From: Gemmatimonadota bacterium
GTDB taxonomy: Bacteria; Gemmatimonadota; Gemmatimonadetes; Gemmatimonadales; Gemmatimonadaceae
Assembly: GCA_019510405.1 (NCBI GenBank)
Contig: JAEKKK010000119.1
Location: 1 to 38,804 of the forward strand
Length of the DNA: 38,804 nt
Reading direction: 5' to 3'
The number at the start of each line of letters is the position of its first letter. Within the stretch, counting starts at the first letter, position 1. The translations under genes were made by a program, and so were the position numbers. Below the pieces are notes generated by a model that saw only the letters and a list, made by a program, of their open reading frames with translations, did not search any database and was not told the DNA's origin. Positions 2,088 through 26,752 of the stretch are shown piece after piece.

Positions 2088-2106
2088 GGACAACAACTCA
2101 CCACTT

Positions 2107-5321: not shown

Positions 5322-6367
5322 GAGCGGCTCCCGCCGGTCTGCCACACCAGCCAGCGCGCGATGCCGTTGACGACGAGCGTGATCAGCAGGAGAACGAACC
5401 CGACGGCCATCAGCGCCGAGAGGTGCACGTCGTTGGTCGCCTCCGAGAATTCGTTCGCGATGAGCGACGCCATGGTGTAGCCGGGCGCGAAGAGCGACGC
5501 CGACAGCTCGTGCCGGTTCCCGATCACCATCGTGACGGCCATCGTCTCGCCGAGCGCGCGGCCGAGGCCGAGGATGACACCGCCGATGATCCCCGAGCGC
5601 GCGAAGGGGATTACCGCGCCGGTGATCGTCTCCCAGCGCGTCGCGCCGAGGGCGAGTGCCGCTTCGCGCTGCGAGCGCGGCACGGCCATCAGCACCTCGC
5701 GCGAGACGGCGGCGATGTACGGCAACACCATGATCGACAGGATCAGCCCCGCCGCGAGCACGCTCGGCCCGTACGCTGGTCCACGGAAGAAGGGGGTGGC
5801 GCCGAGATGCAGGGTGTCGCGCAGGAAGGGCATCACGTCTTCGCGGAGCAGCGGGAGGAGGAAGAACACCCCCCAGAGTCCGTACACGACGCTCGGCACG
5901 GCGGCGAGCAGATCGATCAGGAAGGCGAGTGGCTGGCGCACCCAGCTCGGCGCGAAGTCGGAAAGGAAGATCGCGCCGCCGAGCGCGAGGGGCGTCGCGA
6001 TGACGAGCGCGATGATCGACGTGATGATCGTGCCCGCGATGGCGGGCGCGGCGCCGAACTGGCCGGCGACCGGATCCCACGTGCTCGAGGTGAGGAACCC
6101 GAAGCCGAACTGGCGGAGGGCGGGCCATCCGGCGACGCCGACCTCGACGAAGATGAGGAGGAGCAGGATCGGCACGCACAGCGCGAAGCCGAAGATCGCC
6201 GCGCGATAGACGCGGTCGGCGACGACCGTCCCCTCGATGGAGACGCGTGAGGGCGGCGCGGCTGGCGAACCGGCCAGCGGTGTGGCGAGGGTCGGCAGCG
6301 TCCTGGACTCCGGCGTCGTCACGGTAGCAGGCAGCGAAGGTGTCTGCATCTGTGTACGGAAGCTCAC
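5318..6367 (-). CDS. pstC: Phosphate ABC transporter permease PstC
   Basis: [70 protein letters not shown]. Confidence 0.95.
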   Translation of the reverse strand: MSFRTQMQTPSLPATVTTPESRTLPTLATPLAGSPAAPPSRVSIEGTVVADRVYRAAIFGFALCVPILLLLIFVEVGVAGWPALRQFGFGFLTSSTWDPVAGQFGAAPAIAGTIITSIIALVIATPLALGGAIFLSDFAPSWVRQPLAFLIDLLAAVPSVVYGLWGVFFLLPLLREDVMPFLRDTLHLGATPFFRGPAYGPSVLAAGLILSIMVLPYIAAVSREVLMAVPRSQREAALALGATRWETITGAVIPFARSGIIGGVILGLGRALGETMAVTMVIGNRHELSASLFAPGYTMASLIANEFSEATNDVHLSALMAVGFVLLLITLVVNGIARWLVWQTGGSRS

Positions 6368-6396: not shown

Positions 6397-6413
6397 TGTA
6401 ACGGTCGTGTCAC
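6397..6413. promoter_or_regulatory. PhoB-box-like direct repeat between pstC and the porin gene
   Basis: TGTAAC (6397-6402) ggtcg TGTCAC (6408-6413), exact 11-bp period, similar to the known PhoB box geometry (7-bp direct repeats, 11-bp pitch). Confidence 0.65.
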
Positions 6414-6519
6414 GGCGCGCACGAGAGGGTGGGAACCGCCTCGCTCTGCTCCACCGACGAAAGCGCCGTTACGAGATCGCAACATTCCGCCGTTGCGGCT
6501 GTGACTGCATGCGCGGAGC

Positions 6520-6540
6520 TTGTTACACGCCATGTAACAA
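6520..6540. promoter_or_regulatory. Perfect inverted repeat in the pstC/porin divergent intergenic region
   Basis: TTGTTACA cgcca TGTAACAA, 8-bp perfect arms built from the same TGTAAC core. Confidence 0.55.
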
Positions 6541-6603
6541 ACCGCGCTCGACCACGGTGTGCGCCGAGCGGCGCGATCACCGCGGTCGACTCGACACCGA
6601 CCA

Positions 6604-7857
6604 ATGTCCATTCGATTGATCGCTGCCTGCGTTCGACGTGCCGCGCTGGCGGCACTGATTGTCTCGAGCCGGCTCGTCGCCCAGAACGCCAAGCCGGACA
6701 GCGGCGCCGCGCCGAAGCCGGCCCCCGCACCGACTCCCGCGGCGCAGACGCTCCCGCCGGCAACGCCCGGGCTCAACTTCTCCGGCGTGATCTTCGGCTT
6801 CTGGAACTATCAGGTGCGCACGACGCCGAATCAGTTCCGTAATCAGGTGAACAGCGAGTTCAACGTCGATCGCGCATATCTCACCTTCCGCATGCCGGCG
6901 GGTGACCACACCAGCATCCGGATCACCACCGACGTGTTCCGCAGCCTGGACTCGTCGAGCAACGCGTACACCATCCGCGCGAAGTACGCCTTCCTGCAGT
7001 ACGAGAGCTCCAAGCTGTCGAACGGCCTCGTGCTGGCGGGGAAGGTCGGCATCATCGAGAACGTCGTCGTGCCGTACCTCGAGAACTTCTGGCCGCGCTA
7101 CCTGAGCCAGGCGGCGGTGGAACGCTCGGGCTACTTCGCGTCGGCCGACGTCGGGCTCGGCGGGACCGTGACGTTCCCGAACAAGATGGGAGAGATCTAC
7201 ACGACCATCGTGAACGGCCCAGGCTACACGGGGCGCGAGCGTGACCGCTTCAAGGATTACGCAATCCGGGTGACCTATACCCCGCTCATGAACGAGCCCA
7301 ATGGCTCGCTGCTGCAGACGTTCACCGTGCTGGGGTGGGGCTACAAGGGCGCATTCGCGAGCGCCTTCGTGAACGGTGGCGCCGGACAGCAGGGTGCGAT
7401 CGGCGACGCGCTCGATCGGAGCCGATTCGGCTTCTTCGCCGGCATCCGGGACCCGCGGCTCACTCTCGGCGCCGAGTTCGCGTCGCGCCACGATGGTGGC
7501 GAGATCGGGCAGAACACCCTCGTGTCGCCCCGCCTCGCGACCGAGACGAGGGGCCGTCTGCTGTCGGGCTTCACGCTGGTACGGCCGTGGGCGTTCACGA
7601 ACGTGAATCACAAGTCGCCGGTGGGTCTCGTGCTCCGCTACGACCACGTCTCGCCGACGGTGAGCTCGGAGGGATTCGTCACACCGCCGGCGACGTCGAA
7701 CGCGTATCACAACTTCATCGGCGGTCTGTTCGTCGACATCTCGCAGAAGGCGCAGCTTGCGTTCGACTATCAGGAGCAGCTCCCCTCGAACAACGGCGTG
7801 TCGTTGGCCCCCGCCGCGCTGAAGGCCTACTACGCCCACTTCAACGTCAACTTCTGA
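6604..7857 (+). CDS. Outer-membrane porin (phosphate-selective porin O/P-like or related beta barrel)
   Basis: Signal peptide then beta-barrel-like alternation (NFSGVIFGFWNYQ..., ...LKAYYAHFNVNF with terminal F); directly upstream of pstS. Confidence 0.7.
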   Translation: MSIRLIAACVRRAALAALIVSSRLVAQNAKPDSGAAPKPAPAPTPAAQTLPPATPGLNFSGVIFGFWNYQVRTTPNQFRNQVNSEFNVDRAYLTFRMPAGDHTSIRITTDVFRSLDSSSNAYTIRAKYAFLQYESSKLSNGLVLAGKVGIIENVVVPYLENFWPRYLSQAAVERSGYFASADVGLGGTVTFPNKMGEIYTTIVNGPGYTGRERDRFKDYAIRVTYTPLMNEPNGSLLQTFTVLGWGYKGAFASAFVNGGAGQQGAIGDALDRSRFGFFAGIRDPRLTLGAEFASRHDGGEIGQNTLVSPRLATETRGRLLSGFTLVRPWAFTNVNHKSPVGLVLRYDHVSPTVSSEGFVTPPATSNAYHNFIGGLFVDISQKAQLAFDYQEQLPSNNGVSLAPAALKAYYAHFNVNF

Positions 7858-7860
7858 TGG

Positions 7861-7888
7861 CGTGACGGATCCGTTACGTGATCGCGAC
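7861..7888 (+). promoter_or_regulatory. PhoB-box-like triple direct repeat upstream of pstS
   Basis: CGTGAC (7861) ggatc CGTTAC (7872) gtgat CGCGAC (7883), exact 11-bp spacing. Confidence 0.6.
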
Positions 7889-7951
7889 GGATCGCGGACG
7901 GGGCAGGGCGAGCTTGCTGGCGTACACCAACGACTACTTCAAGGAGCTCGA

Positions 7952-8986
7952 ATGCGTGTAGCCAGCAAGCTTGCCGTCGTCGCCGCGCTCGTCGCGACCG
8001 GCGCGACGGCCGCGATGGCGCAGGACCTCACGGGCGCCGGCGCGACCTTTCCGTATCCCATCTACAGCAAGTGGTTCTCCGATTACGCCGCGAAGACCGG
8101 CGTGAAGATCAACTATCAGTCGATCGGCTCCGGTGGCGGCATCCGGCAGCTCTCCGAGCAGACGGTCGATTTCGGTGCGTCGGATGCGCCGATGTCGGAC
8201 GCCGAGCTCGCGAAGGCGAAGGGCGGCGCCGTGTTGCACATCCCGACGGTGCTGGGCGCGGTGGTCGCGACGTACAACCTGCCGCAACTGACGAAGGCGC
8301 TGCGCCTCGACGGCGCGACACTCGCCGACCTGTACCTCGGCAAGATCACGAAGTGGAACGACGCGCGGATCGCCGCGCTGAACCCGGGCGCGAAGCTTCC
8401 GGATACCGACGTGCTGGTCGTGCATCGCTCCGACGGCTCGGGCACGAGCTACGTCTTCACCGATTACCTGGCGAGCGTGAGCCCGGTGTGGGCGGCGAAG
8501 CCGGGTAAGGGGAAGGAAGTGCAGTGGCCCGTCGGGCTCGGCGCGAAGGGCAACGAAGGGGTGGCCGGCCAGGTGAAGCAGTTGCCCGGTTCGATCGGCT
8601 ACATCGAGCTGGCGTACGCGAAGCAGAACAAGCTCGCCTTCGCCGACATCAGGAACGCGAAGGGGCAGTTCGTGACGCCGAGCATCGCGGCGGTGACCGC
8701 GGCGGCGGCGGGCGCGGCGGCAGCGCTGCCGGCCAACACGGACTACCGCGTGAGCATCGTGAACGCGGCCGGCGCGGGCGCGTATCCCATCTCATCGTTC
8801 ACCTGGCTGCTCGTCTACCAGACGCAGCCCGACGCGGTGAAGGGAAAGAAGCTGCTCGACTTCGTGCGCTGGGCGCTCGTGGACGGTGAGAAGTCCGCCG
8901 CGACACTCGACTACGCGCCGCTTCCGCCCGCCATGGCGAAGCAGCTGCTCAAGCGGCTCGGCACGGTGAGTCTCGCGGCGAAGTAG
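7952..8986 (+). CDS. pstS: Phosphate ABC transporter periplasmic substrate-binding protein PstS
   Basis: Signal peptide; DLTGAGATFPYPIYSKWFSDYAAKTGVKINYQSIGSGGGIRQLSEQTVDFGASDAPMSD; VHRSDGSGTSYVFTDYL. Confidence 0.96.
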   Translation: MRVASKLAVVAALVATGATAAMAQDLTGAGATFPYPIYSKWFSDYAAKTGVKINYQSIGSGGGIRQLSEQTVDFGASDAPMSDAELAKAKGGAVLHIPTVLGAVVATYNLPQLTKALRLDGATLADLYLGKITKWNDARIAALNPGAKLPDTDVLVVHRSDGSGTSYVFTDYLASVSPVWAAKPGKGKEVQWPVGLGAKGNEGVAGQVKQLPGSIGYIELAYAKQNKLAFADIRNAKGQFVTPSIAAVTAAAAGAAAALPANTDYRVSIVNAAGAGAYPISSFTWLLVYQTQPDAVKGKKLLDFVRWALVDGEKSAATLDYAPLPPAMAKQLLKRLGTVSLAAK

Positions 8987-8991
8987 TCGAG

Positions 8992-9219
8992 GTGCGGGAG
9001 ATCGTGCGCGAGTACGCGGATCTACTCACGATGCAGGGCATGTCGCCCGATCAGACGATTTCCAGTCTCCAGGCCGTCGCACGTCGCGCGCGGCCGCGCA
9101 TGCGCGAGCGTGACGCGTCGATCGCGGGCGATTCGGCGGACGACCGGATGGCATTGATCGCGCGGTGGTGTTCAGCGTGGGTTCGACGTGCCAAGGGGTC
9201 AGACACCTTCGGTATCTGA
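8992..9219 (+). CDS. Small hypothetical protein immediately downstream of pstS
   Basis: 75-aa ORF with GTG start 6 bp after the pstS stop; stop codon falls inside the 9195-9223 hairpin. No recognised family. Confidence 0.35.
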   Translation: MREIVREYADLLTMQGMSPDQTISSLQAVARRARPRMRERDASIAGDSADDRMALIARWCSAWVRRAKGSDTFGI

Positions 9220-9223
9220 CCCC
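9195..9223. repeat. REP-like hairpin (GGGGTCAGA...TCTGACCCC)
   Basis: GGGGTCAGA (9195-9203) / TCTGACCCC (9215-9223), perfect 9-bp arms, plus inner ACC-TTC-GGT stem; no T-tract. Confidence 0.6.
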
Positions 9224-9265
9224 AACTCCGACGTCAGTTCGCCGCTGCTGAAGGCGCCGGGACGG

Positions 9266-9628
9266 TCAGAGGAACATCCCGGTGAGCGCCGCCGATCGTC
9301 CGATGAACTGATCGATCCGTCTGCTCGTCGGCGGTGCAGTCTCCGGCTCGACGATATTCGCGACGTCCTCGTCGCTGGCGAACGCCAGACGAAAGCTGCC
9401 GTTACGTACCTCGCGCCAGTAGCGCACCAGCGCGCGGACGGCGTCCATCGCGCCGTCGTCGAGCGCGGTCACGCCGTGCAGGTCGAGGCGCAGCGTCCGC
9501 ACGTGCACCGGGATGTCGCGGCAGACGCCCCGCAGCGGGAATGCGTCGTAGCCGGCGAGGCGGCCCGAGAGGTAGAGGGTGGCCGAGCTGTCGCTCACTT
9601 CGAGCGCGTGCAGCAGGCGAGGGGTCAC
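9266..9628 (-). CDS. STAS-domain-like protein
   Basis: LEVSDSSATLYLSGRLAGYDAF...VRTLRLDLHGVTALDDGAMDAVRALVRYWREVRNGSFRLAF resembles the STAS/anti-anti-sigma fold. Confidence 0.55.
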   Translation of the reverse strand: MTPRLLHALEVSDSSATLYLSGRLAGYDAFPLRGVCRDIPVHVRTLRLDLHGVTALDDGAMDAVRALVRYWREVRNGSFRLAFASDEDVANIVEPETAPPTSRRIDQFIGRSAALTGMFL

Positions 9629-9729
9629 GGATCCGAGCCTTGTTGAGGTGTGCTCGAACCTTCACCGTCGTGCGCAACTATACACCCTACGACTCGCAGC
9701 GGTTGTGTAACGGCCGAAGCGCGCTCAGC

Positions 9730-11430
9730 TCACGCTGCGGGGAGCCACACGCCGACGGTCGTACCGCGTCCGACCACGCTCGTTGCCTCGACGCGCCCCC
9801 CATGCGCCTCGGCGAGATGGCGCACGATGGCCAGCCCGAGTCCGGTGCCTCCCTCGGCGCGTGAGCGTCCGGCGTCCACGCGGTAGAACCGCTCGAAGAT
9901 CCGCGGCAGATGCTCGGCGGAGATGCCGATCCCCGTGTCGCTCACCTCGACCCACACGCCGCCGTCTGCCGCGCGGGTGCGGAGCGTGACGCCGCCCTCA
10001 CGCGTGTAACGCACCGCGTTCTCGACGAGGTTCGTGACGATCTGTCGGAACGCCGTCGGATCGACGCGCACCCGGGTTGCGTCGGGTGTCACGGTCGCGG
10101 CGAGAGTCAGCCCTTTCGCCGACGCCGCGCTCTGGAGCGCGGTGAACACGTCGGTCACGATACCCGAGACCTCCACCGTGCTCACGTTCGGTCGCCAGCC
10201 CCCGCTCTCGATCCGCGAGAGGTCGAGCAGGTCGTCGACGATGCGCTGCATGCGCGTCGCGTTGTCGCGGATCGTCTCGACGAAGCGCTGCCGCTGCTCG
10301 GACGGGATCCCGTCGTCGAGCAGCGTTTCGGCGTAGCCGCTCACGGCCGTCAGCGGCGTCTTGAGCTCGTGCGAGACGTTCGCCACGAAGTCGCGGCGAA
10401 TCGTCTCCAGCCGGCGGAGCACGGTGAGGTCGAGCACCGTGACGACGCCGCCCCCGGTGCGCAGCGGCCGCGAGGCGACGGCAATCGTACGATCGTGCAT
10501 CGCGATTTCGCTCGGCGGCATGCTCGTGCCGACGCTCGCCTGCTCGATCGCCTCCCGTAGGGTGTGCTCGCGCGGGAGCAGCTCGCGCACGAACGGCAGG
10601 GGTGCCTGCACGCCGAGCAGGGTGCGCGCGCGTTGGTTGATGCGGATCACCATCCCGCGCTCGTCGACGGCGAGCACTCCCTCCTCGAGCGACTCGAGCA
10701 CGGCGGTCATGAGCTGGTCGTCCGCCTCGAGCGCGTCGAGGCGCGTCGCGAGCTGCTCGGCCATGCGGTGCAGGGCGGTCGCGAGGTCGCCGACCTCGCC
10801 GGGAGCGGAGAGCGCCGGCCGACGCGCGAGATCGCCCGCGGCGATGGCGCGTGCGACGTCGCGCAGCTCGACCACCGGTTGCGAGATGCTGCGCGCGAAG
10901 AGGAACGCCAGCGCGAGTGCGCCGACGAGGGCAAGGAGCCCACTGGCGAGGACGTCGCGTTGCGCGCCGCGCACGATCTCGTCGAGGCTGCCCGTGGTGA
11001 GCGACACGCGCACGTAGCCCAGCGGATGCTTCTGCGCGACATACAGCTCGTCGTCCCCCGCCGATGCACTGTGACGGAGCGATACGCCGACGCCGTGCTC
11101 GCGCGCACCGACGACCTCCGGCCGACTGTAGTGATTTTCCAATCGGCGCCGCGCTTCGGGGCCGAACTCGGCGTCGCCGACGACGACCCCGGTGCTGTCG
11201 ATCAGTGTGACGCGGTAGCCGAGCGCGTCGCCGGCGCGTTGGGCCAGCGCTTCCGGGTCGGTGCCTGCCTGCCACTCCGCGCTGACCACGCGCCCGACGC
11301 GAGCCAGCTCGTCGCGCTTCTCCTCGACCAGCCGGTTACGAAGGCGCCCGCCCGCGATCAGCACCACCGCGGCCACCATCGCCGTCACGACGACGAGGGA
11401 GCCGGCGAGGAGCCGACGGGCGAGGGTCAC
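9730..11430 (-). CDS. phoR: Phosphate regulon sensor histidine kinase PhoR (HAMP, PAS, HisKA, HATPase)
   Basis: H-box [31 protein letters not shown]-box [41 protein letters not shown] start at 11430 overlapping the phoB stop. Confidence 0.93.
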
Positions 11431-12143
11431 GCCGGCCGGCTCTGCGGCACCCGGAGCCGGTACCCGAAGCCGCGCACGGTCTCGATCATGTCGCCCGCCG
11501 CGCCGAGCTTGGCCCGCAGCCGCTGGACGTGCATGTCCACCGTCCGCGTCTGGATATCGGGCGCCGCTTCCCACACCGTCTCGAGGAGGTGCGCGCGGCC
11601 CTGCACCCGCCCACGCCGCTCGGCGAGGGTGAGCAGCAGCTTGAACTCCGTCGGCGTGAGCTCGATCGGTGCGCCGTCGACTTTCACCTGGTGCGCGCCG
11701 AGGTCGATCTCGATCGCACCGAGCTGCAGGCGGTCGCCGCTCGTCGCTCCACCGGCCCCGACCCGCCGCAGGATGGCGCCGACCCGCAGCACGAGCTCCT
11801 GCGGGCTGAACGGCTTGGTGAGGTAGTCATCGGCTCCGAGCGAGAGCCCGTGAATCCGGTCGGGCTCCTCGCGCCGCGCGGTGAGCATCAGGACGGCCAC
11901 GTCGCGCGTCGGCTCGTTGGCGCGGATCTGCTCGAGCACTTCGTAGCCCGTCATCCCCGGCAGCATCAGGTCGAGCACGACGAGCGACGGGCGCTCGCGG
12001 CGCACCGCTTCGATCGCCTCCGTGCCGGAGCTCGCTGTCGAGACGCGGTAGCCCGCCTTCGCCAGGTGGTACGCCACGAGGGCGACGATATCCGGCTCGT
12101 CGTCCACCACCAGCACGCGCTCGCCCGCGGTCGCCGTTGTCAT
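11427..12143 (-). CDS. phoB: Phosphate regulon response regulator PhoB (receiver + winged helix)
   Basis: [59 protein letters not shown]-terminal [18 protein letters not shown]...[15 protein letters not shown]...RGFGYRL. Confidence 0.94.
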
Positions 12144-12769
12144 CGCACGCTGGCCGGTTGGAGACGCTGCATGATCTTCGCGACGATCATCTCGATCGCC
12201 ACCGGGTTGTGTCCACCACGGGGCACGATCACGTCCGCGTAGCGCTTGCTGGGCTCCACGAACTCCAGGTGCATCGGCCGCACGGTCGACAGGTACTGGT
12301 CGAGGATCTCCGGCAGGGGCCGGCCCCGCTTCGCCATATCCCGCTTGATCCGCCGCATCAACCGGATATCCGGGTCGGCGTCCACGAAGACTTTCACGTT
12401 GCATAGGTCACGCACCCTGGAGTCGACGAAGAGCAGGATCCCATCGATGACGATCACGTCGGCCGGCGGGACCGGCACGACGGCACCACCGCGCACGTGT
12501 GCCTGGAAGTCGTAGACCGGCTTCTCGATGGAGCGTCCCTCCGCGAGCTCGGAGAGTTGCCGAACCAGGAGGTCCCAGTCGAACGCGTTCGGGTGGTCCC
12601 AGTTGATCGCCTTCCGCTCTTCGAACGGCAGATGAGAGTGGTCGAGGTAGTACGCGTCCATGTCGATGAACGCGACCGACGCATCTCCAAGTGCCGCCGC
12701 GACGTTGCGCGCCACGGTGCTCTTCCCGGAGCCGGATCCGCCCGCCACCCCGATGATCAGGGGATTCAC
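12140..12769 (-). CDS. udk: Uridine kinase
   Basis: PLIIGVAGGSGSGKSTVARNVA, DAYYLDHSHLPFEERKAINWDHPNAFDWDLL, VIVIDGILLF, RLMRRIKRDMAKRGRPLPEILDQYLSTVRPMHLEFVEPSKRYADVIVPRGGHN. Start probably GTG 12769. Confidence 0.93.
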   Translation of the reverse strand: MNPLIIGVAGGSGSGKSTVARNVAAALGDASVAFIDMDAYYLDHSHLPFEERKAINWDHPNAFDWDLLVRQLSELAEGRSIEKPVYDFQAHVRGGAVVPVPPADVIVIDGILLFVDSRVRDLCNVKVFVDADPDIRLMRRIKRDMAKRGRPLPEILDQYLSTVRPMHLEFVEPSKRYADVIVPRGGHNPVAIEMIVAKIMQRLQPASVR

Positions 12770-12843
12770 CGGACGAACCGACGCGCCATGCTCGTCTCGC
12801 GATGAAAGCTGGACGAGCGGACCGATGCAGTGCAGAGGGCCTG

Positions 12844-12860
12844 TGTCACAGTCGTGTATA
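12844..12860. promoter_or_regulatory. PhoB-box-like direct repeat in the udk / nucleotidase divergent intergenic region
   Basis: TGTCAC (12844) agtcg TGTATA (12855), 11-bp period; spacer agtcg nearly matches the ggtcg spacer of the 6397 site. Confidence 0.5.
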
Positions 12861-12967
12861 GAGCGGGCGCGCGAAAGTCGGGACGGGTCAAGTGTGCCCG
12901 GTCGGTATGGATGCGTCAACTGGACGAAACGCTCCCCGCTTCCCGGGCCGCCGACTAGCTTTTTCCC

Positions 12968-15900: not shown

Positions 15901-16192
15901 CGTCTCGGGCGTTCAGCTGACGTACGATCCCGCCGCTCCGCCGGGCAATCGGTTGCGGAGCGCCACGCTGGCCACCGGGAAGCCAATCGATCCTGCGGCG
16001 CGGTACAGCATCGTGCTCAACAACTTCATGGCCGAGGGCGGGGAAGGGCTGGGCCTCAGCAAAGGCGCGATCAGGAGCGAGCATCTCTCCACGATCGATC
16101 TCGATGCGCTGGTGCGGTACCTCAGGACACTCCCTCAACCCGTGCACGCCCCGACCGAAGTGCGCATCCGTCCCACCGGAGCTACGCCATGA
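12968..16192 (+). CDS. Bimodular lipoprotein nucleotide phosphoesterase: CpdB-like module fused to UshA/5'-nucleotidase-like module
   Basis: Lipobox-like LLAVAC. Module 1: TTDIHGRVRGWDYD, GDITQGN, VGNHDFNYG, YGHSHKE, ALYPYDNTVRAIRISGRQLREYLEQSARYF, NYRQSGGGDYP. Module 2: GTNDFHGALEPR, DGGDEFQGT, LGNHEFDWGQDTL, SGHTHSLVN, NNGGIRTDL, FELQPFGNTLYRITVTGDALRAYLE. Confidence 0.9.
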   Translation: MLNRTSATIAATLLAVACAHPASSPPPASSTPAAIDLVVAATTDIHGRVRGWDYDRDRPDPGVGLARAATIVDSLRQAAEGRVLLIDAGDITQGNALAFVAARVSRDAGPTPVIAAMNAMHYDAAAVGNHDFNYGVPYLERNLRQARFPLLAANVRRADGRRLVPGWTMVERAGVKVGIVGATTPGSMVWDRDNLRAADVVIGDILPAVRLGVDSARAAGAEVIVVTMHSGLSEPATYDTASTGLPSDNVAARVAREVPGVDLVVYGHSHKEMADTSINGVLLVQAKNWVQSVAAAHLRLARENGRWRVIGKTGTLIHTAGHTESPAVLAATDSAHRAAVAWVTTPIGRTDVAWRADSARVADTPLQDFVLEVMRRAAHADLAAGAAFSLDASIDSGAITAARLQALYPYDNTVRAIRISGRQLREYLEQSARYFTVDASGAPTVNREIPGYNFDIVAGADYVLDVSRPVGERVTRLEVKGRPVAPADSFTLALTNYRQSGGGDYPMIVGAPVVYKSTEDVRQLLTDEVRRAGVLRPQDYFTRNWRIEPASAVSALYRQLRGGVGPVAAGAPRAAQQDTTPLARRTPRPPTRLRILGTNDFHGALEPRVDSRGVRRGGAAYLAAMIRRAAAECSPPQCQVLLVDGGDEFQGTLASNLAFGKPITGIFNELGYAAAALGNHEFDWGQDTLRARMRDAHYDFLGANVRYKDGRDVPWIRDDTLVTRGPLKIGIIGLASVITASTTLARNVADLNFLQPGPIVDSLARRLRARGADYVIVLAHDGAFCDRGPASCNGEIIGIAHSFKEPIDAIVSGHTHSLVNTTVAGIPIVQAYSSGTALDVIDLGPDGVTHQVRNVLPDSIAPDPAVARLVDQALVRVAPIIDQRIARIAQTYTRTDEGPQQFALGNLIADAMRFAGKGDVAVMNNGGIRTDLRAGTATYGSLFELQPFGNTLYRITVTGDALRAYLERLVARNDPRYHVSGVQLTYDPAAPPGNRLRSATLATGKPIDPAARYSIVLNNFMAEGGEGLGLSKGAIRSEHLSTIDLDALVRYLRTLPQPVHAPTEVRIRPTGATP

Positions 16193-16440
16193 GCGCCACG
16201 CTGCGCGTATTCGTGAACGGCGTCGGCTATGACCTCCCCACCGGCGCCACCGCGCTCGACGCCGTGGCCCTCCACGACGCCGACGAGGCACGGGCGGTGC
16301 GCGAGGGTGCCGTGCTCGTCACCGACAGCCGCGGCCTGCCGATCGATGCCGAGTCGCCGATGTTCGCCGGGGCGGTGTTGCGGTTGATCCCGAATCGCGG
16401 CCGCGACGCCGCCGACCCTGCCGCTCGCTTCGACGAATGA
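16189..16440 (+). CDS. Small protein, possibly MoaD/ThiS-like beta-grasp, lacking C-terminal GG
   Basis: 83 aa, RVFVNGVGYDLPTGATALDAVALHD...MFAGAVLRLIPNR; ATGA overlaps with both neighbouring genes. Confidence 0.6.
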   Translation: MSATLRVFVNGVGYDLPTGATALDAVALHDADEARAVREGAVLVTDSRGLPIDAESPMFAGAVLRLIPNRGRDAADPAARFDE

Positions 16441-17483
16441 CGCCACCGCTCGACCGCGAGCTGCTGCGGCTCCTGCCGAAGGCCGAGCTCCACTGTCATC
16501 TCGACGGCTCGCTCCGTCCCGCCTCGATGCTCGAGCTCGGGCACGAGCACGGAAAGCCCATGCCCGCCCCCGACGCCGACTCGCTTCGCGAGTTCATGCG
16601 CGTCGACGACGCGCGGCACCTCGAGGACTACCTGGAGCGCTTCGCCATCACCCTCTCCGTGATGCAGACGGAGTCGGCGCTCGAGCGCGTTGCCTTCGAA
16701 CTGGCGGAGGACGCCGCCGCCGATGGCGTGCGCTACATCGAGGTGCGCTACGCGCCGGTACTCAACACCCGCGAAGGGCTCACGCTCGAGCAGGCGGTCG
16801 AAGCGCCGCTGCGCGGTCTCGCCCGCGCAGAGCGCCAGCACGGGATCGTCGGACGGGTGATCGTCTGCAGTCTGCGCCACATGCCGCTCAGCACGTCGCA
16901 GGAGCTGGCCGAGCTGGCGGTCGCGTATCGGCACCACGGCGTCGTCGGCTTCGATCTGGCCGGCGGTGAGGTCGGCAACCCCGCGCGCGCCCACGCGCCG
17001 GCGTTTCAGTACGCTCGCTCGCACGATCTGCCCTGCACCTGCCATGCGGGTGAGGGCGACGACGCCGGCTCGGTACGCGAGGCGATCCACGTCTGCGGCG
17101 CACACCGGATCGGCCACGCCACGCGGCTCATCGAGGACACGTCGCTCACGGACTACTGCAACGACCGCCGCATCCCGCTCGAGATCTGCCTCACGAGCAA
17201 TGTCCAGACGCGCGCCGCCCGGTCGTACGCGACCCATCCTTTTCGCGAGTACTTCGATCGAGGGCTCAACGTCGTGCTCAACACCGACAATCGGCTCATG
17301 AGCGGCACGACGCTCACCGACGAGTACGTTCACGCGGCGCAGTCCCTCGAGTTCACTTTCGACGAGCTGGCCGAGGTCGCGCTCAACGGCTTCGAGAGCG
17401 CGTTCCTTCCGTACCCCGAGCGCGTGCGACTGGCCGCGCAGGCGCGCGAAGAGATCGCCGCCCTGCGCGCGCGTTCCACGTGA
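16437..17483 (+). CDS. add: Adenosine deaminase
   Basis: LPKAELHCHLDGSLRPASM, CHAGEGDDAGSVREAIHVCGAHRIGHATRL, EICLTSNVQT, VVLNTDNRLMSGTTLTDEY. Confidence 0.93.
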   Translation: MTPPLDRELLRLLPKAELHCHLDGSLRPASMLELGHEHGKPMPAPDADSLREFMRVDDARHLEDYLERFAITLSVMQTESALERVAFELAEDAAADGVRYIEVRYAPVLNTREGLTLEQAVEAPLRGLARAERQHGIVGRVIVCSLRHMPLSTSQELAELAVAYRHHGVVGFDLAGGEVGNPARAHAPAFQYARSHDLPCTCHAGEGDDAGSVREAIHVCGAHRIGHATRLIEDTSLTDYCNDRRIPLEICLTSNVQTRAARSYATHPFREYFDRGLNVVLNTDNRLMSGTTLTDEYVHAAQSLEFTFDELAEVALNGFESAFLPYPERVRLAAQAREEIAALRARST

Positions 17484-18316
17484 CCGGCGACGCACGCTTC
17501 GACGCGGTCGCCGCGCATCGCGCTGCGGACGTCGTGCGTCGTCACCTCGGCACGATCGACGAGCCGGCGCTCGCCATCGTGCTCGGCTCCGGGCTCGGCG
17601 GACTTACCGGCCGCATCGAGAGCGCGACCGCCATCGCATTCGGCGACGTCCCCGGCTTCTCGGCGGCGACCGTCGCCGGCCATGCAGGCCGGCTCATCGT
17701 CGGACGCCTCGCCGGCCGGCCTGTCGTGGCGCTCGCCGGTCGCTTCCACATGTACGAGGGACACCCCGCCGAGCAGGCGGGGTTTCCAATCCGCGTGCTG
17801 CACGCGCTCGGCGCTCGGACGTTGTTCGTCTCGAATGCGGCGGGCGGGATCAACCCCGCGTTCACGCCGGGCGACCTGATGATCGTGACCGATCATCTCA
17901 ATCTCATGTTCCGCAACCCGCTCGTCGGCAGGCTCGTCGCCGGCGACGTCCGCTTCCCCGACATGAGCGAGCCGTACGACCGCGCACTGGCCGCGCTGCT
18001 GCGCGAGCAGGGCGCCTCGCTCGGCATCGCGCTGCGCGAGGGCGTGTACTGCGGCCTCCTCGGTCCGACCTACGAGACCCCCGCCGAGGTCCGCATGCTG
18101 CGCATCCTCGGCGCCGACGCGGTAGGGATGTCCACCGTGCCGGAGGTCGTCGTCGCGCGCGCGATCGGCATGCGTGTCGCGGGCGTCAGTTGCATCACGA
18201 ACCTCGCTTCGGGCGTATCGCCCACGCCGCTCTCGCACGCCGAGGTCATCGAGACGACCGCGCGCGTCGCCTCCCAGTTCGAGTCGCTCGTCGAGCGCTT
18301 CGTCGCGGCGCTCTGA
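17480..18316 (+). CDS. Purine nucleoside phosphorylase (PNP-I, trimeric type)
   Basis: AIVLGSGLGGLTGRIE, VPGFSAATVAGHAGRLIVG, ALAGRFHMYEGH, FVSNAAGGINPAFTPGDLMIVTDHLNLM, GPTYETPAEVRMLRILGADAVGMSTVPEV. Confidence 0.94.
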   Translation: MTGDARFDAVAAHRAADVVRRHLGTIDEPALAIVLGSGLGGLTGRIESATAIAFGDVPGFSAATVAGHAGRLIVGRLAGRPVVALAGRFHMYEGHPAEQAGFPIRVLHALGARTLFVSNAAGGINPAFTPGDLMIVTDHLNLMFRNPLVGRLVAGDVRFPDMSEPYDRALAALLREQGASLGIALREGVYCGLLGPTYETPAEVRMLRILGADAVGMSTVPEVVVARAIGMRVAGVSCITNLASGVSPTPLSHAEVIETTARVASQFESLVERFVAAL

Positions 18317-18380
18317 GCTCGCGGGGTGCCGATGGCGCGCCACGCCACGGCAACGGTGAGATCACCGTGATTTGTCGCCG

Positions 18381-18430
18381 TGTAACGATCCGGCGACGCG
18401 CTGTGTAACGGCCCGTGACCGAACCGTGGC
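18381..18430 (+). promoter_or_regulatory. Cluster of PhoB-like half-sites upstream of the TonB-dependent receptor
   Basis: TGTAAC (18381), TGTAAC (18404), CGTGAC (18414), CGTGGC (18425). The last two are 11 bp apart; others are off-register (23 and 10 bp). Confidence 0.4.
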
Positions 18431-18514
18431 CGAATGCGCATTGGATCGATACCAGCCGGACCGAACTATCGAGCACGAAGCACCACTCGAAGACTCCCTC
18501 CGGTCCCATCATCG

Positions 18515-21313
18515 ATGCTGACGCGACCCTCACTGATTCGCCGGCTCGTATTCCTATTCCTCGTTGCACTGCCGTGTGCGCTCTCCGCGCAGCGCGAAGC
18601 TCAGCAGGGCACGGGCCGCATCGTCGGCCGCATCATCGACGCCGCCTCGGGCGCCGGTATCGCCGACGCCGGTGTCCAGGTTGTCGGCACGACCACCGGC
18701 GGCCGCTCCGGCGTCGACGGCCGCTTCTCGCTCGGCAACGTCCCCGCCGGCACCGTGACGATCCAGGTCCGCCGCATCGGTTTCGCCACCAAGCAGGTGA
18801 CGGGGCTCGTGCTCGAGGCGGGGAAATCGCTGGAGCAGAATGTGAGCCTTACCGCTGCCACCGTGCAGCTCGAGGCGCAGGTGACCACGGCGTCGGTCGA
18901 GCGCGGCTCCGTCAGCGGCGCGCTCGACGCACAGCGCAACGCGGCCGGTGTCGTCAGCGCGGTGACCGCCGAGCAGATCTCGAAGAGCCCCGACGGCGAC
19001 GCCGCGCAGGCAGTCAAGCGCGTCAGCGGCGTGACGGTGCAGGATGGCAAGTACGTCTTCGTGCGCGGGCTCGGTGAGCGCTATACCACCAGCTCCCTCA
19101 ACGGCGCGCGCGTGCCAAGCCCGGAGCCGGAGAAGCGCGTCGTCCCGCTCGACATGTTCCCGGCCGGCCTCGTCCAGACGATCACGACGACGAAGACCTT
19201 CACCCCCGATCAGCAAGGTGACTTCAGCGGCGCGTCGGTGGACATCAGGACGAAGGAGTTCCCCGCCACGCGATCGACGGCCTTCCAGTTCGGAAGCGGC
19301 TATTCGCCCGGCGCGACCGGCTCGCGACTGCTGTCCGCGACGAGCGTTGGTGGCGAGTCGTTCGCCATGGTCAACCACAACCGCGATCTCCCGGCGGTCG
19401 TGCGGAACCTCGGCAACTTCCAGAACATCAATCTCAACCAGGGCGACATGAACTACCTGGTGAGCACCTTCCGGAACTCCTGGACGCCGAAGGTCGCCAC
19501 CGGATCGCCGCTGCTGAACGGGTCGATGTCGGTCGGTGGCAACGATCCGGTCCTCTTCGGGCACCGCATCGGCTACCTGTTCTCGGGCACCATCTCCTCG
19601 GGCACCGATCTGAAGGACGGCCAGGTGCGCGCCCTCGCCGACCGAGGCACGACGAAGGGTGAGACGGTGGAGATTGACCGCTTCACCGGATCGACGACGA
19701 GCCAGAGCGTCCTCTGGGGCGGTCTGGCCAACCTCAGCACGCTGATCAACGAAGGCTCGCGCATCTCGTTCAACGGGCTGTTTAACCGCTCGGCTGACAA
19801 CGATGCGCGCGTCGAGGCGGGAAGCTTCGCTGCCGACGCAATCCCGGTGCAGATCACGCGCATGGAGTACACGGAGCGAGGGGTCTACTCGGGGCAGCTC
19901 ACCGGCGAGCACCAGATCGGTTCGATGCATCGCTTCGACTGGTCGGCCACCGCGAGCGGCGTGCGCCGCTACGAGCCCGACCAATCCGCGTTTGTGCAGT
20001 CGATCGATCAGGACCCGGCGGGCGGCCCGGCGGTGCTGCACTGGTATGCCGGCGGCAGCGGCAGCGCCGTGCGCACCTACTCCGATCTCAACGAGAACAG
20101 TCACGAGTACTCGGCGAAGTACACGCTGACTGTCGGGAGAGCCGGCTCGCCAACCGTCATCAAGTTCGGCGGCCTGTCGCGTCACACCTCGCGCGATGCG
20201 CAGAGCTTCTCCTACGCCATCAGTGCGCGCAATCTGACCCCTGAGCAGCTCGCACTTCCCCTCGAGGAAATCTTCGACGGGCGATTCAGCACGCCGAGCT
20301 CCAGCTACTTCAACGTCGGACCGCTCTCGCAGGGCGGATCGTACGCGGCGCGCGACCGGCTGACTGCCGGCTTCGTCATGGCGGACGTCCCGATCTTCTC
20401 GGCGCTCCACGCCATAGGCGGCGTCCGGTATGAGAGCGACAACCTCGAGGTCGACGCGTTCTCCACGCTTGGATCGCCTGTCAACACGGTGAAGAAGTGG
20501 AACGACGTGCTCCCGTCGCTGGGCCTCAACCTCCAGCTCACCTCGCGCCAGCAACTCCGGCTCTCCGGCTCACGCACCCTCGCGCGCCCCGAGTATCGCG
20601 AGCTGTCACCGATCATCAGCCGCGACGTCGTCGGCGGCGAGAACGTGCAGGGCGACGAGAACCTGTCGCGCACGCGCGTCACGAACATGGACGCGCGGTG
20701 GGAGTTCTACCCCGGCGCCGGCGAGATCCTCAGCGTCGCGCTGTTCGCGAAGAAGTTCGATCTGCCGATCGAGCGAGTCTACGGCTCCGGTAGTGGAGGG
20801 ACCGCCTTCGTGTTCTACACGAACGCCGAGAGCGCGGACAACTACGGCGTCGAGCTCGAGCTGCGGAAGCACCTGGGCGCGCTCGGCAGCCTCTTCGAGC
20901 CACTCACGCTGTTCAGCAATGTGACGTTGATGGAAAGCCAGATCCACCTGTTCGACAGCACGAAGGCGTCGGCGACGAACTTGAGCCGCCGGATGGTGGG
21001 GCAGGCGCCGTATGTACTGAACACGGGTCTGACCTACGCCTCGCGCAGTGGCGGGCTGTCCGCCACTGCGCTGTTCAACCGCATCGGTGAGCGCATCGTG
21101 GCGGCAGGCGGAACGCCTCTTCCGGACGTCGTCGAGAAATCGCGCAACGTGCTCGATCTCTCGCTGCGTCAGGCGATCCGCTCGGGCGTGCTGCTGCGGA
21201 TGGACCTCAAGAACCTGCTCGACTCGCCTTACGAGGTGCGCCAGGGGACGGTCGAGCGCGAGTTCTATCGCTCCGGCCGCATCGTGGGACTCGGGCTCCA
21301 GTGGCAGCACTGA
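18515..21313 (+). CDS. TonB-dependent outer-membrane receptor with N-terminal carboxypeptidase-regulatory-like domain
   Basis: Signal peptide; GRIVGRIIDAASGAGIADAGVQVVGTTTGGRSGVDGRFSLGNVPAGTVTIQVRRIGF; plug AEQISKSPDGDAAQAVKRVSGVTVQDGKYVFVRGLGERYTTSSLNGARVPSPEPEKR; C terminus YRSGRIVGLGLQWQH. Confidence 0.9.
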   Translation: MLTRPSLIRRLVFLFLVALPCALSAQREAQQGTGRIVGRIIDAASGAGIADAGVQVVGTTTGGRSGVDGRFSLGNVPAGTVTIQVRRIGFATKQVTGLVLEAGKSLEQNVSLTAATVQLEAQVTTASVERGSVSGALDAQRNAAGVVSAVTAEQISKSPDGDAAQAVKRVSGVTVQDGKYVFVRGLGERYTTSSLNGARVPSPEPEKRVVPLDMFPAGLVQTITTTKTFTPDQQGDFSGASVDIRTKEFPATRSTAFQFGSGYSPGATGSRLLSATSVGGESFAMVNHNRDLPAVVRNLGNFQNINLNQGDMNYLVSTFRNSWTPKVATGSPLLNGSMSVGGNDPVLFGHRIGYLFSGTISSGTDLKDGQVRALADRGTTKGETVEIDRFTGSTTSQSVLWGGLANLSTLINEGSRISFNGLFNRSADNDARVEAGSFAADAIPVQITRMEYTERGVYSGQLTGEHQIGSMHRFDWSATASGVRRYEPDQSAFVQSIDQDPAGGPAVLHWYAGGSGSAVRTYSDLNENSHEYSAKYTLTVGRAGSPTVIKFGGLSRHTSRDAQSFSYAISARNLTPEQLALPLEEIFDGRFSTPSSSYFNVGPLSQGGSYAARDRLTAGFVMADVPIFSALHAIGGVRYESDNLEVDAFSTLGSPVNTVKKWNDVLPSLGLNLQLTSRQQLRLSGSRTLARPEYRELSPIISRDVVGGENVQGDENLSRTRVTNMDARWEFYPGAGEILSVALFAKKFDLPIERVYGSGSGGTAFVFYTNAESADNYGVELELRKHLGALGSLFEPLTLFSNVTLMESQIHLFDSTKASATNLSRRMVGQAPYVLNTGLTYASRSGGLSATALFNRIGERIVAAGGTPLPDVVEKSRNVLDLSLRQAIRSGVLLRMDLKNLLDSPYEVRQGTVEREFYRSGRIVGLGLQWQH

Positions 21314-21327
21314 CCACGTGGACCCGA

Positions 21328-21359
21328 CGATGGTTTCGTCGCTCGCGACGAAACCATCG
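21328..21359. terminator. 15-bp perfect stem hairpin after the TonB-dependent receptor gene
   Basis: CGATGGTTTCGTCGC tc GCGACGAAACCATCG; begins 15 bp after the stop, no T-tract. Confidence 0.6.
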
Positions 21360-21365
21360 CGTTCG

Positions 21366-21393
21366 CGTGACCTGTTCGTGACCACCGCGTAAC
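21366..21393 (+). promoter_or_regulatory. PhoB-box-like triple direct repeat upstream of the beta-helix lipoprotein
   Basis: CGTGAC (21366) ctgtt CGTGAC (21377) caccg CGTAAC (21388), exact 11-bp period. Confidence 0.65.
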
Positions 21394-21492
21394 GCGCTCC
21401 CAACACGGCGAGCGTTGATTCGTCCGTGGCGACCTCCGCCGCGTTCCCCGTTTCGATCCCACCTGATTCATCACTTCCTCTCGAGGATTGGC

Positions 21493-23244
21493 ATGACGCT
21501 CATTGGTCGGGCACTCGCCGCTACCGCGGCAGTGCTCCTGGTCGGCGCCGTTGCGTGTGGCAGCGACAACAGCACCGGTACGACGACTCCCGCTACTCCC
21601 GTACTCGGTCTCGCCGCGACGGCGAAGAGCACGACGTCGGTCGATCTGACGTTCAACGGCACGGCCGGTGACAACAGCTACGACATCGAGCGCGCCGAAG
21701 GCGCTGCCGGTACGTTCGCCGCCGTCGGCTCGGTGCCGGCGCCGGCGGCCGGTGGCCCGGTGACGTATACCGACACGGCACTCAAGGTGAACACGGCGTA
21801 CCGGTATCACATCATCACCAATCGCGGTGCGCTGAAGAGCGTCGCCTCCGGCGAGGCGACGGTAACGACGAAGGACTTCGGTTTCGCCGCCAACGCGATC
21901 AGCACGGACATCACGGCGAGCCGCACCCTCTACGCCGACACCGCCTATACCCTCAAGGGCTTCATCCACGTCGCCAACGGCGCCGTGCTCACGATCCAGC
22001 CCGGCACCAGGATCTACGGCGACTACGCCACGCTCGGTTCTGCCCTCATGATCATGAAGGGCGCCAAGATTCAGGCCGTCGGCACTCCGGCGGCGCCGAT
22101 CGTCTTCACCTCGTCGCGCGCGGCCGGCCAGCGCCAGCCTGGCGATTGGGGCGGGCTACTCCTCGTCGGCAATGCGCCGAACAATCGCTCCGGCGTCGTG
22201 AACGTCGAGGGGACGGGTACCGACGGCAACACTGTGGTCGGCGGGAAGAACTACACCGTGCAGTACAACGGCGGCAATGTCGCGACGGACAACTCGGGCA
22301 CGCTGCAGTTCGTCCGCGTGGAGTTCGCCGGTTTCGCCCCGCTCCAGGACCAGGAGTTCAACTCGTTTACCTTCTGCGCACTCGGCTCCGGCACGCGCGC
22401 CTCGTTTCTCGAGTCGCTGAGCCCACTGGATGACGCGTTCGAATTCTTCGGTGGCGGCTTCGACATCGATCACCTGATCGCTTTCGAGACGGCCGACGAC
22501 ATGTTCGACATGTCCGAGGGCTGGCAGGGGCGGATGCAGTACCTGATCGGCATCAACACCGTGCAGCTCACGCCACGCACCGGCGCCGGCTTCTACTCCG
22601 TCGATCTCGAGGGGATCGAGAACGACGGGTGCAACGGCACGGGCTGCGATCTCGGGTTCAACTCGACCCCCTTCACCATCCCGCTCGTCGCGAACTTCAC
22701 GATGATCGGCTGCGGTTTGTCCTCCTGCGTCGGCGCGAGCGGCGGCCACGGGATGATGCTGCGTCGCGGTACGGGCGGCTACTACGTCAACGGCGTCGTC
22801 GCGCGGTTCCCGACCGACGGCATCTCCCTCCGCGATCAGGCGACGTACGATCGCGCGGGTGACACCGGGACGCCCTCCGCCACGGCGGATCTCCAGCTGA
22901 AGAACATCTTCTTCGCCGAGGTGAACGGGAAGCTGTTCCAGCCGCTCTCCGCGAACCAGTTCGAGCTCGACTCTACCGCGAACAACCTGAAGCTGAGCAC
23001 CGGCACGGCGGCCTCACTCTTCACGACCCTCCCCGCCGTCGGAACGGCTCCAGCCGATATCACAGCATTCGACTTCACCCCGGCCGCGGGTTCACCCATC
23101 GCCACGGGCGGGCTCAACGCCTTCACCGGCGCCATCGCCACCAAGGCCGGCACGTTCGTCACCGCGACCGCGTACCAGGGCGCCGTGGCGCCGGGGGCCG
23201 GCGGCAAGTGGTGGGCGGGCTGGACGACCTACGCTCGCAACTGA
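21493..23244 (+). CDS. Secreted lipoprotein with FnIII-like N-terminal domain and beta-helix-like body
   Basis: Lipobox LLVGAVACGSDN; GLAATAKSTTSVDLTFNGTAGDNSYDIERAEGAAGTF (FnIII-like); GAVLTIQPGTRIYGDYATLGSALMIMKGAKIQAVGTPAAPIVFTSSRAAGQRQPGDWGGLLLVG (beta-helix-like). Confidence 0.7.
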   Translation: MTLIGRALAATAAVLLVGAVACGSDNSTGTTTPATPVLGLAATAKSTTSVDLTFNGTAGDNSYDIERAEGAAGTFAAVGSVPAPAAGGPVTYTDTALKVNTAYRYHIITNRGALKSVASGEATVTTKDFGFAANAISTDITASRTLYADTAYTLKGFIHVANGAVLTIQPGTRIYGDYATLGSALMIMKGAKIQAVGTPAAPIVFTSSRAAGQRQPGDWGGLLLVGNAPNNRSGVVNVEGTGTDGNTVVGGKNYTVQYNGGNVATDNSGTLQFVRVEFAGFAPLQDQEFNSFTFCALGSGTRASFLESLSPLDDAFEFFGGGFDIDHLIAFETADDMFDMSEGWQGRMQYLIGINTVQLTPRTGAGFYSVDLEGIENDGCNGTGCDLGFNSTPFTIPLVANFTMIGCGLSSCVGASGGHGMMLRRGTGGYYVNGVVARFPTDGISLRDQATYDRAGDTGTPSATADLQLKNIFFAEVNGKLFQPLSANQFELDSTANNLKLSTGTAASLFTTLPAVGTAPADITAFDFTPAAGSPIATGGLNAFTGAIATKAGTFVTATAYQGAVAPGAGGKWWAGWTTYARN

Positions 23245-23313
23245 TTGCGCTCGACTTCGCACGGAGTCGTTGGCCGAGTGGCCGGCGGCTCCGTGCGCGT
23301 TGAACCCACACCG

Positions 23314-24057
23314 ATGACACTCGAGATGATTCGCGCTGCTTCCGCACGACTGATCGCTCCGCTCTTTCTCGCGATGGCCTTCGCTGCGTGCAAAGACCAG
23401 CCACGGTCGAACGATGCGCCAGCCGCGACGCCCACGGTTCTCATCGCCAACGCGACGCCCGCGCGAAGCGCCGCCGCGCGGGATTCCGCACGAGCCGACG
23501 AGGTGCGCCGCGCGCGGCAGGATTCGATCAACCGCACGCTCCCGGGTTATGTGGTCGATTCCATCTTCCCGGTCGACGAGGAGCTCCGCCGCTTCCGGAA
23601 GGCACTCGGTGGCGACAGCGCGCTCGTCTTCAGCGGTGGCAGCCCTTCGCGAGAGGCTCTCGTGCGACGGTTCATCACGGCGCTCGTCGCGAGCGACACC
23701 AACGAGTTCCGCACCATGGCCGTCCACGGCCGCGAGTTCGCGGATCTTTACTACCCTGGTTCGCCGTACTCGCGCGCACCGTACCACCAGCCGCCGCAGC
23801 TCGCCTGGAGCCTCATCCAGAATCCCAGCGCTGATGGTATCACGAAGCTCCTTCGCACGATGGGCGGGAAGCCCATCTCCTACGTGAGCCACCGCTGCGA
23901 TCCAACGGCGCTGCACGAAGGTCGGGTCACGCGCTACGCCGGCTGTATCGTTCGCATCGCCGATACAAAAGGCGACACGACGACGCGCCTCATGTTCGGA
24001 TCCGTCGTGGAGTTCGGCGGCGTGTACAAGTTCCTCAGCTACACCAATCGTCTGTAA
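23314..24057 (+). CDS. Hypothetical lipoprotein
   Basis: Signal peptide with lipobox-like MAFAACKDQ; no recognised domain; downstream of the beta-helix lipoprotein. Confidence 0.6.
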   Translation: MTLEMIRAASARLIAPLFLAMAFAACKDQPRSNDAPAATPTVLIANATPARSAAARDSARADEVRRARQDSINRTLPGYVVDSIFPVDEELRRFRKALGGDSALVFSGGSPSREALVRRFITALVASDTNEFRTMAVHGREFADLYYPGSPYSRAPYHQPPQLAWSLIQNPSADGITKLLRTMGGKPISYVSHRCDPTALHEGRVTRYAGCIVRIADTKGDTTTRLMFGSVVEFGGVYKFLSYTNRL

Positions 24058-24082
24058 CGTCGGGCAGGGCCAGAGCCATCCA

Positions 24083-24114
24083 GCGATGGGCCGGGGAATC
24101 CCCCGGCCCATCGC
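24083..24114 (+). terminator. Stem-loop terminator
   Basis: GCGATGGGCCGGGG aatc CCCCGGCCCATCGC then gcgttt; 14-bp perfect stem 26 bp after the stop. Confidence 0.8.
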
Positions 24115-24168
24115 GCGTTTATGCTCTATGTCGTGATCCTTGCGCGTGTTACGTCGTCCTTGCCCCAT

Positions 24169-24207
24169 CGTCACGGGAATGTATCTTGCCTGTCACGAAA
24201 CCGTATC
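24169..24207 (+). promoter_or_regulatory. PhoB-box-like quadruple direct repeat upstream of the metzincin gene
   Basis: CGTCAC (24169) gggaa TGTATC (24180) ttgcc TGTCAC (24191) gaaac CGTATC (24202), exact 11-bp period; an in-phase TGTTAC also lies at 24147 (22 bp upstream). Confidence 0.65.
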
Positions 24208-24264
24208 GGATTCGAGAGGCCACTGGCGACCTCTCGAGATGCACCTCCGCGAGGGCCCATCGCC

Positions 24265-25812: not shown

Positions 25813-25820
25813 GAAACGAA

Positions 25821-25850
25821 AGATGCGCCGCGCGACGGCGCGGCGCATCT
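25821..25850 (-). terminator. Perfect hairpin between the M48 peptidase gene and thiD
   Basis: AGATGCGCCGCGC gacg GCGCGGCGCATCT, 13-bp perfect stem; minus-strand 3' side reads TTCGTTTCAT. Confidence 0.65.
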
Positions 25851-25872
25851 CGATGTCGCTGTCTGTCGCGAC

Positions 25873-26679: not shown

Positions 26680-26752
26680 CGTGTCTCCCGGTCGAAGCGG
26701 TCGTGGGGAACGAGAGCAAGAGCCATTCCCGTACGGCATTTAACGTAACGCC

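Follow-up and report, generated by a model that had tools for sequence, protein, structure and literature searches.

A predicted PhoB-controlled phosphate island with 11-bp-spaced operator boxes in Gemmatimonadaceae

Tandem YGTNAC half-sites lie upstream of several gene units in a stretch of Gemmatimonadota DNA that also encodes a phoBR-type regulatory pair. This raises the question of whether the repeats are operators of that regulator, and how many of the neighbouring genes it would control. The stretch analysed (the window, contig C230, 38,804 nucleotides) makes up 1% of genome G000, a 3.74 Mb assembly in 327 contigs that is 77% complete. The window holds a Pho gene set: pstCAB-phoU-ppx, a porin, pstS, phoBR, a nucleotidase and nucleoside-salvage genes. 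No PhoD phosphatase was found in the genome, of which the assembly covers 77%. In a search for the family of the lipoprotein described below, the nearest relatives were Gemmatimonadaceae metagenome assemblies. The sequence-only reading had taken the whole block to be one phosphate-starvation island under PhoB, including genes not usually associated with Pho.

The left part of the window is organized as follows.

504..6367, minus strand: pstCAB-phoU-ppx operon, head-to-tail (Pfam; gene order matches that of relatives)
5318-6367, minus strand: pstC (BPD_transp_1 is among the Pfam matches of the operon)
~4431-5249, minus strand: pstA, same operon as pstC
3605-4447 and 2805-3608, minus strand: two PstB-like ATPases (Pfam ABC_tran, twice)
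2107-2808, minus strand: phoU (Pfam PhoU)
504-2192, minus strand: ppx (Pfam Ppx-GppA)
6397..6414, unstranded: box 1, between divergent pstC and porin, TGTAACGGTCGTGTCAC, 10/10 pair, 26.4 bits
6467..6483, plus strand: possible secondary box in the pstC/porin intergenic region, 9/10, 10.8 bits
6604..7857, plus strand: outer-membrane porin-like protein (the ORF opens at 6559; likely start 6604)
7861..7888, plus strand: box 2, CGTGACGGATCCGTTACGTGATCGCGAC, 10/10, 21.0 and 15.1 bits, ~90 bp upstream of pstS
7952..8986, plus strand: pstS (TIGR00975, 400.6 bits)
9696..9713, minus strand: possible box, 13.1 bits, 68 bp upstream of a STAS-like gene

The box scores in bits refer to a weight matrix trained on the gaps upstream of lipoprotein, pstS, porin and pstC genes of relatives only, so that the window sites were unseen by it. 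The fractions give the match to the strict pattern YGTNAC-N5-YGTNAC. Scanning of both strands revealed 10/10 pairs with the exact 11-bp pitch at 6397, 7861, 21366 and 21377, the site at 21366 being a triple. The matrix ranked the same regions highest (26.4 bits at 6398, 21.0 at 7861 and 19.3 at 21366), followed by 18414 with 16.3 bits. Box 2 begins 4 bp past the porin stop codon and thus provides pstS with a box of its own. In relatives, boxes also precede pstC and porin. Assignment of the porin by sequence was dropped, as it has no Pfam, NCBIfam or PDB sequence match; it is present in 54 of 99 relatives, mostly adjoining pst genes. The tandem of PstB-like ATPase genes (2805-4447) is a feature of the lineage, since the regions of relatives show an equivalent pair. 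The STAS-like gene (9266-9628) is present in few close relatives only.

The strongest boxes of the right part belong to a TonB receptor and a lipoprotein.

18414..18431, plus strand: box 4, upstream of the TonB receptor gene, CCGTGACCGAACCGTGGC, 16.3 bits
18434..21313, plus strand: TonB-dependent receptor with carboxypeptidase-regulatory-like plug extension (PF00593, PF13620, PF07715)
21366..21393, plus strand: box 5, triple CGTGAC-CGTGAC-CGTAAC, 10/10 twice, 19.3 bits, 127 bp upstream of the lipoprotein ATG
21493..23244, plus strand: ElpS/FII-type lipoprotein with lipobox, FN3 domain and beta-helix domain
23245..24057, plus strand: lp270, a small lipoprotein conserved 3' of the beta-helix lipoprotein

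The TonB receptor probably starts at ATG 18515. The repeats at 18381 had been described as a looser cluster, and they are indeed irregular and out of register (TGTAAC units 23 and 10 bp apart); the best site of this cluster is box 4. The lipoprotein carries a VGAVAC lipobox at the N-terminus of its translation. Its AlphaFold2 model has a mean pLDDT of 91.4. A fold search of the PDB with this model returned FN3 hits together with a weak pectate-lyase match of low TM-score, and among solved structures the sequence matched relatives in the FN3 domain alone. The beta-helix region matches Bacteroidota homologues at 32-43%; it also matches proteins from Indioceanicola (33%, 2e-33) and Sphingomonas (29.5%, 2e-11) that lie in an ElpS-type gene arrangement. 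Homologues in Gemmatimonadota and Bacteroidota have a TonB receptor gene directly upstream, and an adjacent receptor was seen in nearly all loci checked. Genomes G023 and G050 (L202, L192) contain two copies of the lipoprotein.

The distribution of the repeats was examined in 40 regions from related genomes, taken around lipoprotein or pstS homologues. The same modules recur there in shuffled order: udk-phoB-phoR, nucleotidase-83aa-ada-pnp, TonB-lipoprotein-lp270, pstSCAB-phoU-ppx and porin. Clustering of phoBR, pst, phoU and ppx with the nucleotidase and the TonB-lipoprotein genes is seen across the family and partly across the order. The gaps between genes contain 87 strict pairs at pitch 11 (183.6 per 100 kb) against 0-8 at each of the remaining pitches between 6 and 21, and harmonics appear at pitches 22 (25 pairs) and 33 (23 pairs). 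Only 2 strict pairs (0.4 per 100 kb) occur in coding DNA, which is ten times as large. A strict box is found upstream of the lipoprotein in 20 of 28 gaps, of pstS in 16 of 30, of porin in 9 of 16 and of pstC in 10 of 22. Gaps inside operons are almost box-free: none was found upstream of lp270 (0/26), pstA (0/21), ada (0/18) or pnp (0/17), nor upstream of pstB and phoR. When the matrix was applied to held-out genes, at least 10 bits were reached upstream of TonB in 14 of 14 gaps, of udk in 95% of 21 and of the nucleotidase in 86% of 22 (shuffles, ~4% or less), these gene classes being partly non-independent because divergent genes share some of the gaps.

The central part of the block encodes the regulators and a nucleotidase-salvage operon.

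9730..11439, minus strand: phoR-type sensor kinase (HAMP, PAS, HisKA, HATPase_c)
11427..12143, minus strand: phoB-type response regulator (TIGR02154 PhoB is the best of 103 NCBIfam models)
12140..12781, minus strand: udk-like kinase of the PRK/uridine kinase family (PF00485, 1.2e-46)
12844..12861, unstranded: box 3, weak, between the divergent udk-phoBR and nucleotidase operons, TGTCACAGTCGTGTATA, 10.2 bits
12968..16192, plus strand: 5'-nucleotidase / cyclic nucleotide phosphodiesterase, large, with two domains (Metallophos twice, 5_nucleotid_C twice; PRK09419 family)
16189..18316, plus strand: 83-aa protein, adenosine deaminase and purine-nucleoside phosphorylase, with no box of their own
16437-17483, plus strand: adenosine deaminase (ada), of the same group
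17480-18316, plus strand: purine-nucleoside phosphorylase (pnp), of the same group

The two-domain nucleotidase is a probable lipoprotein. The genes ada, pnp and lp270, each box-free, would be transcribed by read-through from upstream. In three genomes the nucleotidase gene was not found between udk and the 83-aa gene, which there lies directly opposite udk; half of the 6 scored gaps upstream of the 83-aa gene hold a site of 10 bits or more. In the G005 assembly the matches to the nucleotidase and the TonB receptor are split (L180 5362-8557, 10838-13683).

The last box of the block precedes a protease gene.

24169..24208, plus strand: box 6, CGTCAC-TGTATC-TGTCAC-CGTATC, 11-bp pitch, 9/10 three times, 12.3 and 11.7 bits
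24265..24981, plus strand: secreted matrixin-type metzincin (M10; PF00413, 3.1e-14)

The 9/10 pairs at 24169, 24180 and 24191 form a four-unit array. The metzincin probably starts at ATG 24265 and not at the ORF start 24121; with this start, box 6 would be non-coding and lie upstream of the gene. The repeats noted in the sequence-only reading are confirmed: those at 6397, 7861 and 21366 are exact, those at 24169 form a near-exact array, and the site at 12844 is weak. A strict pair of 9.4 bits precedes another matrixin-type protease gene on contig C261 (L305 4990-5911). Conserved genes for thiD, an M48 protease, an rRNA methyltransferase-like protein and a prepilin peptidase (25018-28371 in the window, and in relatives) often adjoin the island and are box-free.

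The two weaker boxes leave room for a narrower reading, in which PhoB would act on the core only (pst, porin, pstS and TonB-lipoprotein), udk/nucleotidase and metzincin being mere neighbours with sites too weak for control. Box 3 (a TGTCAC/TGTATA pair) reaches just 10.2 bits and box 6 12.3 bits, and 8 clusters at 10 bits occur in the background of 253 kb (20 contig stretches of the same genome). The box between udk and the nucleotidase, however, recurs in most held-out relatives. As for the metzincin, its close relatives were found in G005 and G024 only; in G005 the array of four units is preserved in the gap from lp270 to the metzincin, and G024 has a similar array in a promoter region common to the metzincin and a divergent TonB gene. 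The metzincin boxes and those of udk/nucleotidase have a GTCAC-N6-GTATC form in common, which is suggestive, though drawn from three genomes. Restriction of control to the core seems unlikely to us, though it is the most serious of the alternatives. The assignment to PhoB has good support in the case of pst, porin, pstS, TonB receptor and lipoprotein and reasonable support in that of udk-phoBR/nucleotidase; for the metzincin it may be proposed tentatively.

Identity of the regulator is a separate point. The response regulator scores 240.4 bits with TIGR02154, under the curated cut-off of 296.2, and the kinase is likewise under its cut-offs (290.1 vs 334.2 for the PhoR model, 339 vs 400 for PnpS). 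Both proteins are therefore named from their best match and their context, and the proposal that the block itself encodes PhoB and PhoR holds in this qualified form. In an alternative reading the repeats are genuine operators, but of a different OmpR-family regulator and not of the PhoB encoded in the block: regulators of this family bind to tandem repeats, OmpR-type members other than PhoB use 11-bp direct repeats as well, and the PhoB model score is under its cut-off. Such a reading is improbable, as the PhoB-type protein is the sole response regulator found in the block and the boxes are concentrated at pst, pstS and phoBR promoters across dozens of genomes.

Enrichment of the sites was estimated against shuffled sequence and against the rest of the genome. 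Above thresholds of 10 and 14 bits, the matrix gives 13 and 5 hits in the window, as compared with 3.5 and 0.3 in dinucleotide shuffles. At 12 bits or more, the block has 6 clusters (32.8 per 100 kb) and the 253,545 bp of other contigs 2 (0.8 per 100 kb), i.e. a ~40-fold enrichment over the background of its own genome; at 15 bits there are 4 clusters against 0. The strict pattern gives 28 strand-hits in the whole genome versus 6 for the reversed control, and 6 of the 28 fall in the window; 17 strict sites outside the window were examined, 12 lying within predicted genes and 5 not. The expected enrichment over shuffled and genomic sequence was thereby borne out. Chance GTNAC matches in GC-rich DNA, conceivable for a motif so short and nearly identical on both strands, are a practically negligible explanation in view of the pitch dependence, the intergenic restriction, the shuffle, reversed-pattern and background tests, and the conservation.

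Boxes occur outside the block as well. Contig C306 (L304, 2223-6901) carries a second phosphate cluster with DUF47 (PhoU_div), a Pit transporter, pstS2 and ppk (polyphosphate kinase), and a 15.1-bit box is located at 3918, upstream of pstS2. On contig C38 (L306, 7500-7528) a triple half-site box of 20.0 bits is situated between methyltransferase and HAD-phosphatase genes; the latter is a likely further member of the regulon. The predicted regulon is therefore not limited to the island. Geometry, position, gene content and conservation agree with the single PhoB-controlled island that the sequence-only reading had put forward. The block very probably is a Gemmatimonadaceae Pho island whose PhoB-type regulator acts via 11-bp-spaced boxes.

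The following sequence of events can be proposed. At low phosphate, PhoR would phosphorylate the PhoB-type regulator encoded in the block, which would then bind head-to-tail on tandem CGTGAC units, the 11-bp spacing corresponding to one DNA turn. It would activate pstCAB-phoU-ppx, porin, pstS, the TonB receptor and the ElpS-type lipoprotein, and probably also its own operon udk-phoBR, the divergent nucleotidase-salvage operon and the metzincin. The porin would pass phosphate across the outer membrane, and PstSCAB would bind and import it. The nucleotidase would free phosphate from nucleotides while the salvage genes would recover the nucleosides. The lipoprotein and the TonB receptor may act at the surface to capture a substrate that bears phosphorus.

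The PHO box is described as two 11-nt direct repeats with a consensus that differs by species (PMC4415409), and the boxes here fit this description, being tandem direct repeats at 11-bp pitch in the promoter regions of phosphate genes. As in the E. coli-type Pho regulon (PMC4415409), they stand ahead of pst and phosphate-regulator genes and accompany the same core gene set. In contrast to it, the unit here is CGTGAC/TGTNAC (YGTNAC in general) and not CTGTCAT, with GT-A in common with (C)TGTCAT; the genes lie in one island, and the boxes are predicted. Within the same phylum, pstSCAB and PhoR-PhoB are reported in a Gemmatimonadota inventory (PMC10581226), which in the portion considered here describes neither an operator motif nor an island structure nor the TonB-lipoprotein link. 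Literature joining Gemmatimonas, PhoB and phosphate starvation was scarce in our search. The following appears to be new: a Pho box is defined by comparison for Gemmatimonadaceae, the TonB-lipoprotein pair is deeply linked to pst-phoBR, an 11-bp array of similar type stands ahead of this pair in Bacteroidota, and a conserved box precedes a metzincin gene. The comparison yields a testable, sequence-level operator model for phosphate control in a lineage that lives in soil and fresh water and of which few members have been cultured.

The sequence-only reading had included genes unusual for Pho. The TonB receptor and the lipoprotein are not such genes, as lipoproteins of matching pairs are already published as phosphate-starvation-induced; for the metzincin the idea stands tentatively, on its conserved box. 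The pair is a known kind of phosphate-starvation system because it matches the published ElpS/CC0171 and FII/TBDT pairs. In Caulobacter crescentus, the lipoprotein ElpS (CC0170) is produced under phosphate starvation and cc0171 is constitutively expressed (PMC2996285). ElpS is probably a lipoprotein of the same family, and it adjoins a TonB receptor, the likeness being drawn via gene arrangement and the Indioceanicola and Sphingomonas proteins. The order in Caulobacter, Sphingomonas and Indioceanicola (plasmid-borne in the latter two) is lipoprotein-TonB-type II secretion genes; the window differs in having the order TonB-lipoprotein, adjoining pst-phoBR. Among the annotated genes around the window's pair there were no linked type II secretion genes, only a prepilin peptidase nearby (27508). 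No clear YGTNAC array was seen upstream of ElpS-like genes on proteobacterial plasmids, and weak TGTCAT-like pairs were found upstream of such genes in Sphingomonas and Pseudoalteromonas only.

A further parallel is PUSIV of Flavobacterium johnsoniae, which comprises phoBR, TBDT Fjoh_0545, lipoprotein FII Fjoh_0546 and OprP Fjoh_0542; Fjoh_0545 and Fjoh_0546 are strongly induced at low phosphate (PMC8115612, where the term PHO box is not used). Both PUSIV and the window bring together, in a single locus, phoBR, a porin, a TonB receptor and a lipoprotein of the pectin-lyase fold. Plant-associated Bacteroidetes are described as devoid of PstSABC (PMC8115612), whereas the window's pair adjoins pst. 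Upstream of the TonB gene, 14 of 25 Bacteroidota loci have an 11-bp pair of at least 9/10, versus 0-1 at pitches 8-10 and 12-14. These 11-bp-phased pairs (L267-L298) are of the GTTAC/GTAAC type, a candidate Pho box for Bacteroidota. It is possible, with a likelihood we would put slightly short of even, that TonB receptor and ElpS-type lipoprotein represent an ancient PhoB-controlled outer-membrane phosphorus importer, one that Gemmatimonadota and Bacteroidota have in common and operate from the same 11-bp operator, and that the secreted metzincin was recruited to the regulon in this lineage. With its TonB receptor, the poorly understood lipoprotein of ElpS/FII type takes a central place in the phosphate island. 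This makes it more credible that the two proteins import phosphorus compounds or capture them, and the array in Bacteroidota suggests a regulatory logic in common that is testable in cultured strains.
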